DNA from: a virus
Virus record (IMG/VR): IMGVR_UViG_3300042907_002363
Span: 1-35,167 of that record
Direction: 5' to 3' (one strand)
DNA: 35,167 bases
Made by a program: the position numbers and the translations under genes. Under the pieces are notes generated by a model. The model searched no databases and had not been told where the DNA came from. It worked only from the letters and a program-made list of their open reading frames with translations. Shown piece by piece: positions 6,353 through 35,167 of this stretch. Each line of letters begins with the position of its first letter. Position 1 is the first letter of the stretch.

Positions 6353-6888
6353 CACGCTTCTCCGCAGCCGCGGCCAATCACGCCGCTGTTCGTTCCGTCG
6401 GTGAACTCGCTGTGAAGCACCCAGCCCTTCGCGCACCAGAAGCCCCAGTCCCGCACGACCGGCCCCGTCACGAACAGCGACCAGCAGGCGCGCCGCGCCG
6501 GAAACAGCAGCGCGCCGACCACCAGCCGGTGCGCCGCCGTGGGCCGCCGCAGCACGATCGAGCCCGGCTTGCGCCAGACCGTGCGCGTCGGCGGCACCGG
6601 CCACGAGAGCGACGGCCGGGATTCCGGCACCACCTCCCAATAGCCGCCCTTCAGCACGATCGAGACGTTGAGCCAGGGGTGATCGTGCAGCGCCCGGTCG
6701 TCGTCGTCGCGCAGCACCTGGTGCAGGTAGATGTTGAACCAGCGATTGCGCCGGATCACCCACCAGCGGTTCATGTAGACCGAGTCGGCCTTGCCGATGA
6801 CGAAGTCCGGCTCCCGGAACCGGCAGAGCGCGACCCGCCACGCGAGCGCCAGCAGCAGCGCCAGGACGACGATCAGAGCAACCAACAT
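6352..6888 (-). CDS. Cupin-like phage protein with N-terminal membrane anchor
   Basis: Protein of 178 aa. Residues 1-21 form a hydrophobic helix (MLVALIVVLALLLALAWRVAL) and the rest is a cupin-like barrel: RALHDHPWLNVSIVLKGGYWE contains the HDHP metal-type motif, then the second half has RKPGSIVLRRPTAAHRL with the later His. The ending segment (VTGPVVRDWGFWCAKGW) matches phage cupin-like proteins I know from alpha- and betaproteobacterial phages, whose function is not established. The membrane anchor suggests action at the cytoplasmic membrane. A GGGGG stretch upstream of the ATG can serve as ribosome-binding site. Confidence 0.7.
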   Translation of the reverse strand: MLVALIVVLALLLALAWRVALCRFREPDFVIGKADSVYMNRWWVIRRNRWFNIYLHQVLRDDDDRALHDHPWLNVSIVLKGGYWEVVPESRPSLSWPVPPTRTVWRKPGSIVLRRPTAAHRLVVGALLFPARRACWSLFVTGPVVRDWGFWCAKGWVLHSEFTDGTNSGVIGRGCGEA

Positions 6889-6969: not shown

Positions 6970-7440
6970 TCACTTCGCCTTTGCCGCTCCCTGCACTGCG
7001 CGGATCACGCGCCGCACGCGTGCAACCTGGCGCTGGACCTTCTGTGTGAACTCCTCGAGGTGCCGAAGCTCGGCGCGATCGATGCGGCCATCGAGCAGCG
7101 CGCGGTCGACATGCTCCATCAGGTCGGCGGCGGTGCTGGTGCAGCGCATCGCCTCGCGCAGCGGGTCGGGCGCTTCGTACTCGGGCGTCGGCGGCGACGG
7201 CAGCAGGCGGCTGAACAGCTCGACGAACACCGGCGCATGGCCGGCATTGATCAGCATCACCTCAATCGCCAGCGCCTGGTGCAGGCCGATACGGTTGGCG
7301 TGGTTGTCGGGATCGGACCACTTCACGATCAGCGACGCCGACAGGCCGATCTCGCGCGAGATCGCCGCCGCGCCCAGCAGGCCGATCGCCAGGGCGACGC
7401 CATCCTCGATCGTGTCGGGCAGACGATGCTTCTGGATCAT
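6970..7440 (-). CDS. CII-like phage regulatory protein (HTH)
   Basis: Protein of 156 aa starting at the ATG at 7440. The longer upstream frame is not supported. Residues about 20-42 (GAAAISREIGLSASLIVKWSDPD) form a helix-turn-helix resembling CII/CP76-type phage regulatory proteins, followed by helical segments (ALAIEVMLINAGHAPVFVELF) and a basic C-terminal coiled region. It is the second or third gene of the leftward early operon after the Cro-like gene, where such regulators are expected; it may activate repressor establishment or early genes. No target site can be named. Confidence 0.7.
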   Translation of the reverse strand: MIQKHRLPDTIEDGVALAIGLLGAAAISREIGLSASLIVKWSDPDNHANRIGLHQALAIEVMLINAGHAPVFVELFSRLLPSPPTPEYEAPDPLREAMRCTSTAADLMEHVDRALLDGRIDRAELRHLEEFTQKVQRQVARVRRVIRAVQGAAKAK

Positions 7441-7736
7441 GTGCAAACGCCCGCCGCGCGTCGGACAGGACACGCCACCACCGGAGCGCGCATGGTACCG
7501 TCCATGTTCAGCGCGGAGCTTCCATGCCACCGACACCCAACCACCGGCTTGTGCGCGCCGCACGCCAAGCCGCCCGCCTTGAGGAACAGGCAAGATGCCT
7601 CGACATCTTCCTGCGCATCCGCGGCTACAAATGGGACGACGCCGGCGAAAACCTGTTGCTGGACCTCGCCCCGGCGGACGAGACGCGGGCCCAATAGCCC
7701 GAGCGACCCGGCGAGAATGAAGGCGCCGCCGCTCAT
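7437..7736 (-). CDS. Doubtful small ORF between Cro-like and CII-like genes
   Basis: An open frame of 99 aa whose ATG overlaps the Cro-like stop by ATGA and whose stop overlaps the CII-like ATG by ATGA, exactly like real neighbours in this operon. Against it, the amino-acid pattern is odd (Cys- and Gly-rich, with an ending such as VVACPVRRAAGVCT) and reads like the complement of a better-looking frame on the plus strand at 7524-7697. Third-position GC is about 76 percent by my count, lower than neighbours appear. Either this frame or its plus-strand partner is genuine, perhaps not both. Confidence 0.42.
   Translation of the reverse strand: MSGGAFILAGSLGLLGPRLVRRGEVQQQVFAGVVPFVAADAQEDVEASCLFLKAGGLACGAHKPVVGCRWHGSSALNMDGTMRAPVVACPVRRAAGVCT
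7524..7697 (+). CDS. Candidate antisense small protein, 57 aa
   Basis: ATG at 7524 with GGAG five bases upstream, stop TAG at 7695-7697. The translation (MPPTPNHRLVRAARQAARLE... ending DLAPADETRAQ) is strongly protein-like: a basic amphipathic first half, a hydrophobic LDIFLRIRGYKW core and an acidic end. About 79 percent of third positions are G or C. It lies opposite the doubtful minus-strand ORF 7437-7736 and against the direction of the early operon, and I see no clear promoter for it. If expressed, its mRNA would be antisense to the early transcript. Confidence 0.38.
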   Translation: MPPTPNHRLVRAARQAARLEEQARCLDIFLRIRGYKWDDAGENLLLDLAPADETRAQ

Positions 7737-7936
7737 GCCGCGCTCGCTTTCTGACGCTCCGATTCGATGTAGGCGCGCACGCGATCGACGGTGGCGACCG
7801 TCACACCAGCGCCTTCCCGCAGCCGTCCCACAAACTTTCCGTCGTTTACAGCCAGTCGACCGAACGTTGTTTCGGCAACGCCAGTCACAGCGAGGTGACG
7901 GTCTATGTCTTGGAGCAACTGTTCGACGGTCGTCAT
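7733..7936 (-). CDS. Cro-like regulator, probably leaderless mRNA
   Basis: Protein of 67 aa (MTTVEQLLQDIDRHLAVTG...), small and helical, with an HTH-like stretch (AETTFGRLAVNDGKFVGRL). It is divergent from the CI-like repressor and the first gene of the leftward operon, the classic Cro position. An in-frame ATG exists at 7948 but falls inside the -10 box (TATGAT, 7949-7944), so transcripts cannot include it. The ATG at 7936 lies about where transcription should begin, so the message is probably leaderless. Its stop overlaps the next ORF by ATGA. Confidence 0.75.
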   Translation of the reverse strand: MTTVEQLLQDIDRHLAVTGVAETTFGRLAVNDGKFVGRLREGAGVTVATVDRVRAYIESERQKASAA

Positions 7937-7971
7937 GACCGCGATCATAGTGGGACGTCGCCCACTGTCAA
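7936..7971 (-). promoter_or_regulatory. Leftward early promoter with operator in the spacer
   Basis: On the minus strand the -35 box TTGACA (7971-7966, perfect consensus), a 16-bp spacer and the -10 box TATGAT (7949-7944) are followed seven bases later by the ATG at 7936. Operator O1 occupies the spacer and O2 abuts the -35 box, so repressor binding would block polymerase directly. It drives the Cro-like gene and probably the whole leftward early operon. Confidence 0.8.
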
Positions 7972-8023
7972 TGGGCAATAGCCCACTTTGGCTGCCCACG
8001 TGTCCCGTGGGATGAATCCCACA
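7949..8023. promoter_or_regulatory. Three repressor operators, GTGGG-N6-CCCAC
   Basis: There are three 18-bp dyads with the same spacing: O1 7949-7966 (AGTGGG-ACGTCG-CCCACT, perfect arms), O2 7970-7987 (AATGGG-CAATAG-CCCACT, five of six arm pairs), and O3 8006-8023 (GTGGG-ATGAAT-CCCAC core, extended symmetry GTGGGAT/ATCCCAC). Centres of O1 and O2 are 21 bp apart, about two helical turns; O3 is 36 bp further, next to the repressor start. The arrangement parallels lambda OR. Two further copies lie at 9340-9378. Confidence 0.85.
7988..8016 (+). promoter_or_regulatory. Candidate repressor-maintenance promoter
   Basis: On the plus strand TTGGCT (7988-7993), a 17-bp spacer and GATGAA (8011-8016) precede the repressor ATG by six bases, which would give a leaderless or nearly leaderless repressor mRNA, as in lambda PRM. 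The -10 lies inside operator O3, so high repressor levels could shut off its own gene. The box matches are weak, so this is inference. Confidence 0.45.
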
Positions 8024-8679
8024 TGACCGAGACGCTACTGAAAGAAATCGACCGGCGGGCGAAGGTCCTTGGCCTGACCGATATAACCCTTGCCAAAAAG
8101 GCCGGACTGGGTCGCGACGCTGTGCGCGACATTCGTCGGGGCCATTCGACGAATCCTTCTCATTCGGTGATCGCGGCGGTGGCCAAGGCACTCGGATGCA
8201 CCGTTGCCGACCTGACCGGTGAGCGACGTCAGACGCCCATCAGGACGCGCGAAACCATTACAATTTTTGAGGTACCCACCTTCGCGACAGCCGGCCCCGG
8301 TGGCGATGGCGATATGGAGATCACTCGAGATCACGCCGTCGGCGAGTTCACGTTCCCCGCGGCCGGCTTTCGTCAACGCTTCGGTGCCCCGCCGGACGGT
8401 GTCTTCATTGACGAAGTGCGCGGCGACAGTCAGGAGCCGACCTTGCTCCCAGGCCAGCCCGTCATGATCGATGCGCGAGATCGGCAGGCATCGCCGCCCG
8501 GCATTTTCCTCTGTTGGGACGGAGTCGGAATGGTCTTCAAGCGCATCGAAGTAATTCCGAACACTGACCCGGCGCGCGTTCTGTTGAAGAGCGACAACCC
8601 CCGATACGAAACCTACGAACGCCTGCTCAGCGAGATTCACATTTACGGGCGAGTGGTTGGCAGCTGGAAGCGGTTCTAG
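8023..8679 (+). CDS. CI-like repressor, HTH plus S24/LexA-type peptidase domain
   Basis: Protein of 218 aa, the lysogeny repressor. Residues 1-65 form an XRE-type HTH (DITLAKKAGLGRDAVRDIRRG, then VIAAVAKALGCTVADLTG). Residues about 83-218 form the S24 domain: FATAGPGG contains the Ala90-Gly91 type self-cleavage site, EVRGDSQEPTLLPGQPVMID holds the nucleophile Ser136, and MVFKRIE holds the general base Lys173; LKSDNPRYETYE is also typical. The usual GDSMEPT has Gln in place of Met here. All parts for RecA-stimulated autocleavage are present, so SOS induction is likely. The ATG follows operator O3 directly. It converges with the BRCT gene, two bases between their ends. Confidence 0.92.
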   Translation: MTETLLKEIDRRAKVLGLTDITLAKKAGLGRDAVRDIRRGHSTNPSHSVIAAVAKALGCTVADLTGERRQTPIRTRETITIFEVPTFATAGPGGDGDMEITRDHAVGEFTFPAAGFRQRFGAPPDGVFIDEVRGDSQEPTLLPGQPVMIDARDRQASPPGIFLCWDGVGMVFKRIEVIPNTDPARVLLKSDNPRYETYERLLSEIHIYGRVVGSWKRF

Positions 8680-8681
8680 CG

Positions 8682-9293
8682 TCAGAGGAACGTCCGCCAG
8701 TGGTTTTCACCCACGATGGCGATTGACGCTCCCTGATCACGCCATTGCGAGGCGCGAATTATCTTTGTGCCGTAGGCCGAATGCTTCCAGCTTTCCGTCG
8801 CATAAACACCGACGACCAACACGCTCGTCTTCATCGTCAGGGCGCCACACTGCCCGCCACGGTCCTTGACCGCCTGCTCGCACACTTTCCGCGTGCCGAA
8901 GTTGAACGTGCCGGTGAAACAGAACTGCGTCCCGACGATGCTCAGAGGCGGCGCCGGCTTGCACAAAGGCAAGCTGGTGCTTTTCAGCAGCTCGCCGGGC
9001 GACGCATCGCCACACAGGCCCTTCAGCGTCTGAAGTAGCTCCCCGCACTCCTCCGCGTCGATCGTGCCATCGGCGAGAACATCGTCGATGCGAGCGGCGA
9101 GATCTTTCATGATCGGCTCGCCGGTTATGTCCTGGTTCACGGCGAGCCACGATTTCAGCATCTCGACCTCGGCCGCCGTGACGACGTCGTCGGCCGCGAT
9201 TCCTCGGGCGAGGCCAATCAATTCATCGACTTGACGCGCCGCGATGCGCGGGCGGCCCACGCGCTTCAGGAACGTGTCGTCTCGTCTATCCAT
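8682..9293 (-). CDS. BRCT-domain protein with helical N-terminal domain
   Basis: Protein of 203 aa; the ATG at 9293 has GGGGGAGG seven bases upstream. Residues about 117-203 form a BRCT domain like that at the end of bacterial DNA ligase LigA: FCFTGTFNFGTRKVCEQAV, DRGGQCGALTMKTSVLVVG, YGTKIIRASQW, GASIAIVGENHW. Residues about 20-95 are an all-helical domain with repeated acidic DGTIDAEE-type turns, somewhat TerB-like. Similar two-domain proteins occur widely in proteobacterial mobile elements, with unknown function; BRCT modules bind DNA ends, nicks or phosphopeptides. It lies alone between repressor and right operators, transcribed toward the repressor, so it may be expressed in the lysogen. 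No ligase domain is present. Confidence 0.85.
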   Translation of the reverse strand: MDRRDDTFLKRVGRPRIAARQVDELIGLARGIAADDVVTAAEVEMLKSWLAVNQDITGEPIMKDLAARIDDVLADGTIDAEECGELLQTLKGLCGDASPGELLKSTSLPLCKPAPPLSIVGTQFCFTGTFNFGTRKVCEQAVKDRGGQCGALTMKTSVLVVGVYATESWKHSAYGTKIIRASQWRDQGASIAIVGENHWRTFL

Positions 9294-9339
9294 GGTTGCG
9301 CCTCCCCCGGAAGCGTCACAAACCCGCCTGAAAATGGGA

Positions 9340-9383
9340 AGTGGGATATTGCCCATTGACAGTGGGCGTGGTCCCACTATCAT
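9340..9383 (+). promoter_or_regulatory. Rightward promoter with two repressor operators
   Basis: Near-exact inverted copy of the leftward promoter region: 9338-9384 matches the complement of 7943-7989 at 41 of 47 positions by my alignment. Operator O4 is 9340-9357 (AGTGGG-ATATTG-CCCATT) and O5 is 9361-9378 (AGTGGG-CGTGGT-CCCACT, perfect arms). The -35 box TTGACA is 9356-9361, the spacer 16 bp, the -10 box TATCAT 9378-9383, with transcription expected from about 9390. It should drive 9508 through the integrase under the same repressor. Confidence 0.82.
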
Positions 9384-9411
9384 GCGCCCGTCCGCTCGTG
9401 GTGAGGGGACG

Positions 9412-9488
9412 CCGGGAGAGCGGGCTGGGCCGCCTGCCTCCCGGTCGAGTTCCCCGGCTGCGTCTGCACCCCACACGGACGCGGCCGG
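9412..9488 (+). promoter_or_regulatory. Structured 5' leader of the rightward operon
   Basis: Two strong inverted repeats lie in the roughly 118-base leader between the rightward promoter and the first ATG: CCGGGAG (9412-9418) with CTCCCGG (9438-9444), and CCGGC-T-GCGTC (9454-9464) with GACGC-G-GCCGG (9478-9488). Neither is followed by a T run, so they look like RNA structure and not terminators. The ribosome-binding site GAGAGG of the first gene lies just downstream and stays free. A role in attenuation or stability is inference. Confidence 0.5.
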
Positions 9489-9507
9489 GATTTCGAGAGG
9501 GCATCCC

Positions 9508-10710: not shown

Positions 10711-11087
10711 GCGACCAAGGCACACCCGTTCCGACCGCCGACGGCACCGTCGGCACGGACCATAACCAGACAGTCACGCCCGCGGAGGCCACCGACCAGG
10801 CCGGCCAGCTCGACCTGAAGGACCCGAAGGGCAAGAAGTCCCGCAACCGGGCCGGCGGCATGAACGTCGGCCGCCTGCAGTCGTTCGTCGCTCGACTGGA
10901 GAAGCTGGACGAGGAACGCAGGGCGATCGGCGGCGACATCAAGGACGTCTACAGCGAGGCCAAGGGCGTCGGCTACGACGTGAAGACCATGCGCAAGATC
11001 GTGCAGCTCCGCAAAATGGACGCCGCCGACCGCGCCGAGCAGGAAACCCTGCTGGACGTCTACAAGCACGCGCTGGGGATGGTCTGA
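10707..11087 (+). CDS. gapR: GapR/DUF2312-family nucleoid-associated protein
   Basis: Protein of 126 aa; the ATG at 10707 overlaps the upstream stop by ATGA. Residues about 51-126 match the DUF2312/GapR family: RLQSFVARLEKLDEERRAIG, DIKDVYSEAKGVGYDVKTMRKIV, LRKMDAADRAEQETLLDVY, ending HALGMV. The N-terminal 50 residues are a polar extension (SDQGTPVPTADGTVGTDHNQ region) longer than in the short chromosomal GapR of Caulobacter. GapR clamps overtwisted DNA ahead of replication and transcription and stimulates topoisomerases. In a phage it may assist replication of circular phage DNA or alter the host nucleoid. It lies in the repressor-controlled rightward operon upstream of excision and integration genes. 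Confidence 0.9.
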   Translation: MSDQGTPVPTADGTVGTDHNQTVTPAEATDQAGQLDLKDPKGKKSRNRAGGMNVGRLQSFVARLEKLDEERRAIGGDIKDVYSEAKGVGYDVKTMRKIVQLRKMDAADRAEQETLLDVYKHALGMV

Positions 11088-12151: not shown

Positions 12152-12396
12152 TGGACGCCGATCTCGACGACCGCGCGCTACGCATCGCCGCTCGAGCGGT
12201 GCAGCTCTACGCCGAGACGCATCCAAGGCCGATGCAGGTTACGCAGAAGCAGGCGGCCGAGATCTTGGGCGTCCACGCGAAGACCGTGAGAAACTACGTC
12301 GCCGCGGGAAAGCTGACGCTGAACGGCTGCGGCCTGATCCCGATCGCGGCTGTGGACGCGCTGCTCGCTCCCCAGACTTTACGCAAGGTGTCCTGA
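12151..12396 (+). CDS. xis: Excisionase-like small HTH protein
   Basis: Protein of 81 aa. Residues about 31-75 carry a MerR/excisionase-type winged HTH: VTQKQAAEILGVHAKTVRNY followed by VAAGKLTLNG and a short wing ending in IPIAAVDALLA. Position directly upstream of the integrase supports a recombination directionality factor, although the same fold is used by plain regulators. It is the last gene coupled by overlap in the rightward operon; a 209-base gap separates it from the integrase. Confidence 0.7.
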   Translation: MDADLDDRALRIAARAVQLYAETHPRPMQVTQKQAAEILGVHAKTVRNYVAAGKLTLNGCGLIPIAAVDALLAPQTLRKVS

Positions 12397-12488: not shown

Positions 12489-12565
12489 ACCGGCCCCAGC
12501 GTCACTCTCCGGGCCTCGCGCTTGCCCCTGCATATCCCCCGAACTGGACAATCTCGCCGCCTATT

Positions 12566-12600
12566 CCCCATTATTCCCCCACGGGGTTACGCACGGGGGA
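12566..12600 (+). promoter_or_regulatory. RNA fold that could mask the integrase ribosome-binding site
   Basis: The integrase Shine-Dalgarno sequence GGGGGA (12595-12600) is complementary to TCCCCC (12575-12580). A competing pair, CCCC (12566-12569) with GGGG (12583-12586), overlaps the loop, so two mutually exclusive hairpins are possible. Masking of integrase translation is inferred from sequence complementarity alone. Confidence 0.4.
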
Positions 12601-12605
12601 GCGAC

Positions 12606-13592
12606 ATGGCATCGGTGGGGAAACACGGCCGGGGATACCGTGCGCAGGTCTATGTCGGCGGCCGTCGAGCGTCGAAGGTGTTTCGCACCTTGCGCGAGGC
12701 CAACGCCTGGGCGGCGCAGATGGAGGAGCGGCTCGCCGCGGCGCCGGCCGATCGGCACACACTGCGCGACCTGATCGAGCGCTACGTCGAGTCCGTCTTG
12801 CCCGGCAAGCGCGGCGGCGATCACGAGGCCCGCCAGGCCAAAGCCTTCCTCCGGGATTTCTCCGCCATGGCCGACAAGCGGCTGGCCGATCTCGACACTC
12901 CCGATTTTGCCCGGTGGCGCGACGAGCGGCTGAAGTCGGTGAGCGACGCCACGGTGCTGCGCAATCTGAACTGGCTGCGGCACGCACTCAGGATCGCACG
13001 CGAGGAATGGCGGTGGATGACGGGCAACCCGCTCCAGGGCTTGCGCATCCCCCGGAATCCGCCGCCACGCACGCGACGGGTCAGCCCGGAAGAGGTCCGC
13101 GCCTTATGCCGCGTCCTCGACTACCGGCCCGGCAGGGCCCCGGAAACGAAATCGCAGGAGGTCGCCTTGGCCTTCCTGGTCGGCATCCGCTCCGGCATGC
13201 GCGCGGGCGAGATACTGAGCCTGTCGAGCGCCAATCTCGACCTGCGCCGGCGGGTGGCGTCCGTGGCGCACAAGACCCAGCACTTGACCGGGAAGCCTCG
13301 AGACGTGCCGCTGACCCGCCATGCCGTCCGGCTCCTGCGGCCGGTCGCCCACCTCGAGCAGTGCTTCACCATCTCGAGCGCCGTGCTGGATACCCTGTTC
13401 CGCAAGGCGCGCGACCGGCTGCTGATCGAAGACCTGCACTTTCACGACTCCCGCGCCGAGGCACTGACACGCCTGGCCCGCGAGGTCGACGTGCTGACCC
13501 TCGCCAAGATCAGCGGGCACAAGGACCTGCGGATACTTCAGGCGGTCTATTATCGGGAGACGGCGGAGCAGATCGCGGCAAGGCTTGGGTAA
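12606..13592 (+). CDS. int: Tyrosine-type phage integrase
   Basis: Protein of 328 aa that would integrate the circular phage genome into the host chromosome and, with the excisionase, release it. The ATG at 12606 has GGGGGA six bases upstream; a longer frame starts earlier without support. The N-terminal arm-binding domain (residues about 1-45, KHGRGYRAQVYVGGRR) and SAM-like core-binding domain (about 50-140) precede the catalytic domain. Catalytic residues visible are Arg199 in SGMRAGE, Lys230 in the GKPRDVPL turn, His280-x-x-Arg283 in HFHDSRAE, His305 in ISGHKDLRI, and Tyr316 or Tyr317 in AVYYRE. All are present, so it should be active. Confidence 0.93.
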   Translation: MASVGKHGRGYRAQVYVGGRRASKVFRTLREANAWAAQMEERLAAAPADRHTLRDLIERYVESVLPGKRGGDHEARQAKAFLRDFSAMADKRLADLDTPDFARWRDERLKSVSDATVLRNLNWLRHALRIAREEWRWMTGNPLQGLRIPRNPPPRTRRVSPEEVRALCRVLDYRPGRAPETKSQEVALAFLVGIRSGMRAGEILSLSSANLDLRRRVASVAHKTQHLTGKPRDVPLTRHAVRLLRPVAHLEQCFTISSAVLDTLFRKARDRLLIEDLHFHDSRAEALTRLAREVDVLTLAKISGHKDLRILQAVYYRETAEQIAARLG

Positions 13593-34678: not shown

Positions 34679-35167
34679 TCAGGCAATCATGGCCGCCACG
34701 TCGGCGACCGTCTTGGGCTGCGGGTTCATCGACATCAGCGAGGCCGCGTCGAACGTGGCCATCAGCGGATCGATCTTGCCGACGCCCGAGCCCTGTTTCG
34801 TGATCAGCTTGGCGCTGCCCCGCGGTTCGATCTTCGCGTTGCCGACGCAGTAGTTCATGATCTTCTGGCCGCCATGGACCATGGTGCCGTCGGCCAGGGC
34901 GCGTTCGGTCGTCATGATCGCGCCCGACAGGCGCCAGCCCTGCGATATGCCGACGATCTGCTCGCGGGTGATGCCGCCTTGCTCCATCGCGTCGACCAGG
35001 CCGCCGAGGCCGGCGGTGTCGACGCCGACGGCGTTCTTCTGCGGCAGCAGGCCGGAGTCGACGACCTCGCGGCAGATGTCCTCGACCTCGTCCAGGTCGT
35101 CGCCCAGTTCCTTGCAGATCGTGAGGTCGCCAGCCGCGGCGAACGCCTCGAACAGCGCGGCCTCGCT
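34679..35167 (-). CDS. terL: Terminase large subunit, C-terminal part (N-terminus at 1-1339)
   Basis: This is the C-terminal part of the packaging terminase, containing the rest of the RNase H-like nuclease domain, with an acidic GVDTAGLGGLVDAM stretch after the junction. Codon phase agrees: codons start at positions congruent to 1 modulo 3 on both sides of the join once 35,040 bp is taken as the genome length. The gene ends with a TGA at 34679, 15 bases before the start of the capsid protease-capsid fusion, as expected in a packaging-to-head cassette. Bases 35041-35167 duplicate the left edge. Confidence 0.9.
   Translation of the reverse strand, partial: SEAALFEAFAAAGDLTICKELGDDLDEVEDICREVVDSGLLPQKNAVGVDTAGLGGLVDAMEQGGITREQIVGISQGWRLSGAIMTTERALADGTMVHGGQKIMNYCVGNAKIEPRGSAKLITKQGSGVGKIDPLMATFDAASLMSMNPQPKTVADVAAMIA
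35041..35167. repeat. Terminal direct repeat, right copy (contig overlap)
   Basis: Exact copy of 1-127. Joining base 35040 to base 1 gives one uninterrupted terminase frame. If the two copies were real separate DNA, both terminase fragments would be broken genes, which is much less likely. Confidence 0.95.

Follow-up and report, generated by a model that had tools for sequence, protein, structure and literature searches.

Two outward-facing promoters in a 35,167-nt virus sequence (IMG/VR record IMGVR_UViG_3300042907_002363, referred to here in its entirety as the window) bracket what we take, with a probability of about 0.9, to be the immunity region of a temperate phage, in which lysogeny would be controlled by the bipartite OR/OL logic known from lambda. 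A single S24 repressor, encoded between the promoters and predicted to bind operators at each of them, is well supported, by comparison among phages, as the regulator of both.

The window's longest inverted repeat holds both promoters; its 45-nt arms, at 7944-7988 and 9339-9383, are complementary at 41 positions (91%). A preliminary description of this DNA had recognised mirror-image promoters sharing one inverted sequence, with the correct number of matching bases (41) but over 47 positions instead of 45. Each arm contains one of only two exact copies of TTGACA-N16-TATNAT in 35 kb, and these face outward: PR on the minus strand (TTGACA-N16-TATGAT, 7971 to 7944) and PL on the plus strand (TTGACA-N16-TATCAT, 9356-9383), both with a sigma-70 promoter score of 11/12. 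Exact copies of the palindrome AGTGGG-N6-CCCACT, at 7949-7966 and 9361-9378, each span the promoter spacer and extend one base beyond it at both ends, so that all the elements originally ascribed to both promoters (the TTGACA box, the 16-bp spacer, the TATNAT box and the palindrome) are present at both. What that description missed is that the promoters do not have one operator each: three further predicted operators bring the cro side to three and the int side to two. At OR, O1 (7949-7966) within the PR spacer is followed by O2 (7970-7987; one mismatch), which overlaps the PR -35 box at the conserved spacing of 21 bp from O1, and by O3 (8006-8023; two mismatches), whose last base is also the first of the repressor start codon; at OL, O1 (9361-9378) within the PL spacer is accompanied by O2 (9340-9357; one mismatch), which overlaps the PL -35 box. 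Allowing up to two mismatches, AGTGGG-N6-CCCACT occurs six times in the window, five of them in the switch region, against 1.1 expected per whole window, and five of the window's six TGGG-N6-CCCA cores likewise fall within the switch region.

The genes are arranged in the order cro-cII / repressor / gapR-xis-int. Between the promoters, where they had previously been placed, are the repressor gene (8023-8679, plus strand) and a BRCT-like cargo gene that reads towards it (8682-9293, minus strand; phrog_3989, 7.2e-52). The repressor has the full set of features of a self-cleaving S24 (LexA/CI-type) protein, namely HTH and S24 peptidase domains (PF01381, PF00717, phrog_4) and, by motif, a candidate Ala-Gly cleavage site (A90-G91) together with S136 and K173, and is thus predicted to cleave itself; no clear promoter of its own was recognised for its gene. 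Homologues of the BRCT-like gene are annotated as BRCT or ligase-like in Pseudomonas and Vibrio phages, including Vibrio phage K139, and relatives carry other cargo in this position between repressor and OL, such as a nuclease-like gene in a Reyranella massiliensis locus discussed below.

The first gene under PR (7733-7936, minus strand; phrog_7669, 1.1e-5) encodes a 67-aa protein whose mRNA is probably leaderless, because the start codon lies only 7 nt past the -10 box. Its structure was predicted with confidence as a four-helix fold (pLDDT 94.7), for which the best solved-structure matches, all weak (E 0.2 or worse), are mostly to XRE-type HTH proteins (HipB, C.AhdI); by position and model, it is a Cro-like small HTH-type protein and a putative DNA binder. 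Behind it in the PR operon is a CII-family regulator (6970-7479, minus strand; PF06892, 4.7e-8; phrog_101, 1.2e-8), whose start codon is not fixed, the frame being open to 7593. Oddly, given how distant the hosts are, Gordonia phages Ohgeesy and LonelyBoi match a 96-bp stretch of the window (6673-6768) at 83% identity; one record annotates the gene there as cysteine dioxygenase.

The plus-strand operon under PL includes a gene with a GapR-like domain (10857-11087; PF10073, 9.1e-32), a small HTH protein that is likely the excisionase (12205-12396; PF12728, 4.7e-7; phrog_66, 4.5e-6) and, as its last gene, a tyrosine integrase (12522-13592; PF00589, 3.4e-16; phrog_1, 4.8e-49) that is 3 kb from PL. 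Directly after int, the sequence matches the alphaproteobacterial small RNA mmgR/suhB over its full length (RF00519; 13762-13843, minus strand; 49.3 bits), and 27 bp of the match are identical to an mmgR gene of R. massiliensis (L185, 1496-1568). This match is probably the site of attP, with the phage copy probably supplying the 3' half and terminator of mmgR and so restoring the gene upon integration, and it points to a Reyranella-like bacterium as the host. A tRNA gene as the attachment target was considered and rejected: in R. massiliensis, the identical 27 bp lie outside any tRNA gene. The window itself begins and ends with an exact 127-bp direct repeat (1-127 and 35041-35167), which could reflect overlapping ends of the assembly or a genome that is circular or circularly permuted.

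The same promoter pair recurs in other phages. A strict promoter-operator pattern, applied without any protein information, recovered a first relative with a repressor, a Cro-like gene and an integrase in a layout like that of the window (L005), and a search with the Cro-like protein yielded 12 viral-contig loci and 440 genome matches, the 80 of these that were kept being from Alpha- and Betaproteobacteria. Across 14 phage loci, TTGAC-N0-4-TGGG-N6-CCCA has 21 matches, compared to a mean of 0.0 in shuffled sequences, and these sit at the cro promoter or point outward past the repressor, except for a pair of divergent sites sharing an intergenic region. We also scanned for virus records with the one-promoter pattern and then searched the resulting 50 records in full: exactly one promoter-operator per strand is present in 28 of them, and all 28 pairs face outward, whereas a control with the reversed pattern yielded none. 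About 26 of these pairs are independent: the two sites in G013 are separated by just 29 bp, and one region is common to G012 and G044. Because a second site was not a criterion for selection, its presence and its polarity count as independent evidence, and the inverted pair that the preliminary description had proposed to look for in related phages is thus a recurrent feature.

Gene content follows the promoters. A Cro homologue adjoins one promoter, PR, in 32 of 32 records tested; an S24 domain was detected in 24 of the 32, in every case between the two promoters; and among the 18 records with an integrase, 17 have it on the PL strand, away from cro, although two of the 17 are downstream only if their record is circular, and the single exception (G040) scores under the family cut-off. 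Counting the window, a CII-family gene was recognised in only 7 of 30 records. In 8 of the 32 records no S24 domain was detectable; G003, G012, G038, G044, G046, G047 and G048 lack one and yet have the paired promoters, and in G048 the repressor is an HTH protein alone (L019), such that induction there must work differently. Searching viral contigs with the repressor itself confirmed no relative, since repressors diverge, and it was the operator pattern and the Cro-like protein that worked instead; a longer, two-operator pattern gave no matches, and a locus found through the BRCT gene (L006) is without such operators.

Operators at the two ends of the region vary together from phage to phage. 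OR1 and OL1 of the same phage agree on average at 15.0 of 18 positions, as opposed to 12.4 (sd 0.28) across phages, a difference not reached in any of 20,000 permutations that take the phages as unrelated, uncorrected for kinship. This is expected if each phage's own repressor reads both sites, and together with the outward pairs in 28 of 50 records it bears out the original proposal that one repressor governs two divergent operons. Spacing is similarly constrained: O1 and O2 are 21-23 bp apart at OR in 26 of 28 cases and either 21-23 bp (n = 16) or 29-32 bp (n = 14) apart at OL, but never 24-28 bp. At roughly two or three turns of the helix, both classes would place the two sites on the same face, consistent with cooperative binding. 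In 17 of 32 records, OR has a third operator at a maintained distance of 55-59 bp from O1, whereas at OL there are only two stray matches, at 48 and 60 bp.

The palindromes might instead be read mainly by the Cro-like or a host protein, with the S24 repressor acting elsewhere, which we regard as improbable. A Cro-like gene does accompany every pair, lambda Cro and CI use common operators, and palindromes of this kind occur roughly 100-150 bp upstream at chromosomal Cro-like loci as well; but the Cro-like proteins are strongly conserved, down to an invariant VNDGK motif, whereas operators change in step with repressors, O3 lies over the start of the repressor gene, and Agrobacterium phage Atu_ph08 pairs its Cro-like protein with a quite different operator. 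Cro sharing the sites of the repressor would be expected and does not conflict with control by the S24 repressor. The chromosomal loci (L028-L106) comprise many alpha- and betaproteobacterial genomes with a Cro-like homologue, and their upstream palindrome is often GTGGG-N6-CCCAC-like; no relative of the window repressor was found at these loci, which are also without a second copy of the site, and the homologues are perhaps a domesticated regulator.

It is very improbable that the cro-side copy alone constitutes the switch and that the int-side copy is a functionless recent duplicate or serves another gene. The arms in the window are unusually alike (41/45), as they would be after recent copying; however, the outward second copy seen in 28 of the 50 records is usually far less similar to the first and has its own -35 box and O1/O2 spacing, and polarity, phasing and co-variation would not be kept in unused copies. 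Nor is there much reason to view the two 45-nt inverted repeats flanking the 1.35-kb repressor-BRCT segment as recombination sites that flip it, an idea with next to no credibility given that the repressor always reads from cro towards OL in the loci checked gene by gene, that operators and promoter already account for the repeats, and that in most relatives the copies differ too much for recombination.

Under control by the S24 repressor, we infer the steps of binding, repression, autoregulation, SOS induction and PL-to-int read-through from what is directly observed, that is, from the sequence elements and their conservation, polarity, spacing, co-variation and gene order. Repressor dimers would bind the 18-bp palindromes, with TGGG-N6-CCCA as the core, and a repressor on O1, in the spacer, and on O2, at the -35 box and about two helical turns away, would block RNA polymerase at both promoters simultaneously. 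PR would otherwise produce the Cro-like and CII-family proteins, and PL the gapR-xis-int operon, presumably by read-through to int. Binding to O3, over the start of the repressor gene, would limit repressor synthesis, and, as at lambda PRM, repressor on O2, whose centre is some 44 bp away from the start codon, may activate its own gene. Following DNA damage, self-cleavage of the S24 protein would release both operons together.

Transcripts from PL would begin with a strongly structured leader (9389-9507, plus strand; z -3.96 relative to shuffled sequences) that matched no Rfam family. Stronger tandem hairpins are present in the PL leaders of G008, G010, G011 and G039 (z -4 to -7), but a general 5'-end hairpin among the PL leaders of relatives is not significant (p 0.22), a few leaders being very stable. 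A rather unlikely further possibility is that the leader acts, much like the HK022 put sites, as a factor-independent element for antitermination or attenuation: if it antiterminates, losing the repressor would be enough for transcription to reach xis and int.

The architecture of this region is already known, but in the literature searched, mainly outside the subscription journals, we found no description of operators of the TGGG-N6-CCCA type or of this Cro family. Its recurrence shows that a broad group of phages, most of them uncultured, has the two-sided operator logic of lambda as an established design. The operator code of some thirty phages could be read at once, a short DNA pattern suffices to locate these immunity regions, and a Cro function can be proposed for PHROG 7669, a family listed with unknown function.

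The preliminary description had set the layout apart from that of lambda on the grounds that int and xis lie under the second copy. That contrast fails, as lambda likewise transcribes its xis/int (exo-xis) side from the OL-bearing promoter, pL (PMC9239242, PMC4195576). In the window as in lambda, the repressor gene lies between two outward promoters with shared operators, here of one family and overlapping both promoters; PR begins with cro and has a CII-type gene behind it, and xis and int are under PL; OR has three operators; the operators are phased for cooperative binding (21-23 or 29-32 bp); and a cargo gene is situated between repressor and OL, as are the rex genes of lambda. Unlike in lambda, the operators are of the GTGGG-N6-CCCAC type, OL has two operators rather than three, the cargo gene reads towards the repressor, the cro mRNA is probably leaderless, and gapR is part of the PL operon. 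Rhizobium phage 16-3, likened here by its published description, is likewise an alphaproteobacterial phage with operators at its left and right promoters, and its C repressor controls both PL and PR (PMC3694467), but its immC region has two operators per side (oL1, oL2, oR1 and oR2; PMC12429752). A prophage-like locus in R. massiliensis 521 (L027) has a close repressor (phmmer 1.1e-125), a Cro-like protein with 68% identity and the identical set of 3 + 2 operators, and differs in that a Staphylococcal-nuclease-like cargo gene replaces BRCT and in its OL-OR distance of 2.8 kb. Atu_ph08 (Roslyckyvirus, MF403009), whose switch genes are all annotated as hypothetical proteins, has a Cro-like homologue, an HTH repressor in between, and outward TTGACA promoters at both ends with an operator in the spacer; its repressor, by contrast, is a 101-aa protein with an HTH only, and its operators are of a TATCCTC type instead of the GTGGG type, with four such sites, two per end, where almost none are expected by chance. 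Because Atu_ph08 is an isolated phage with a laboratory host, A. tumefaciens C58, the prediction is testable.
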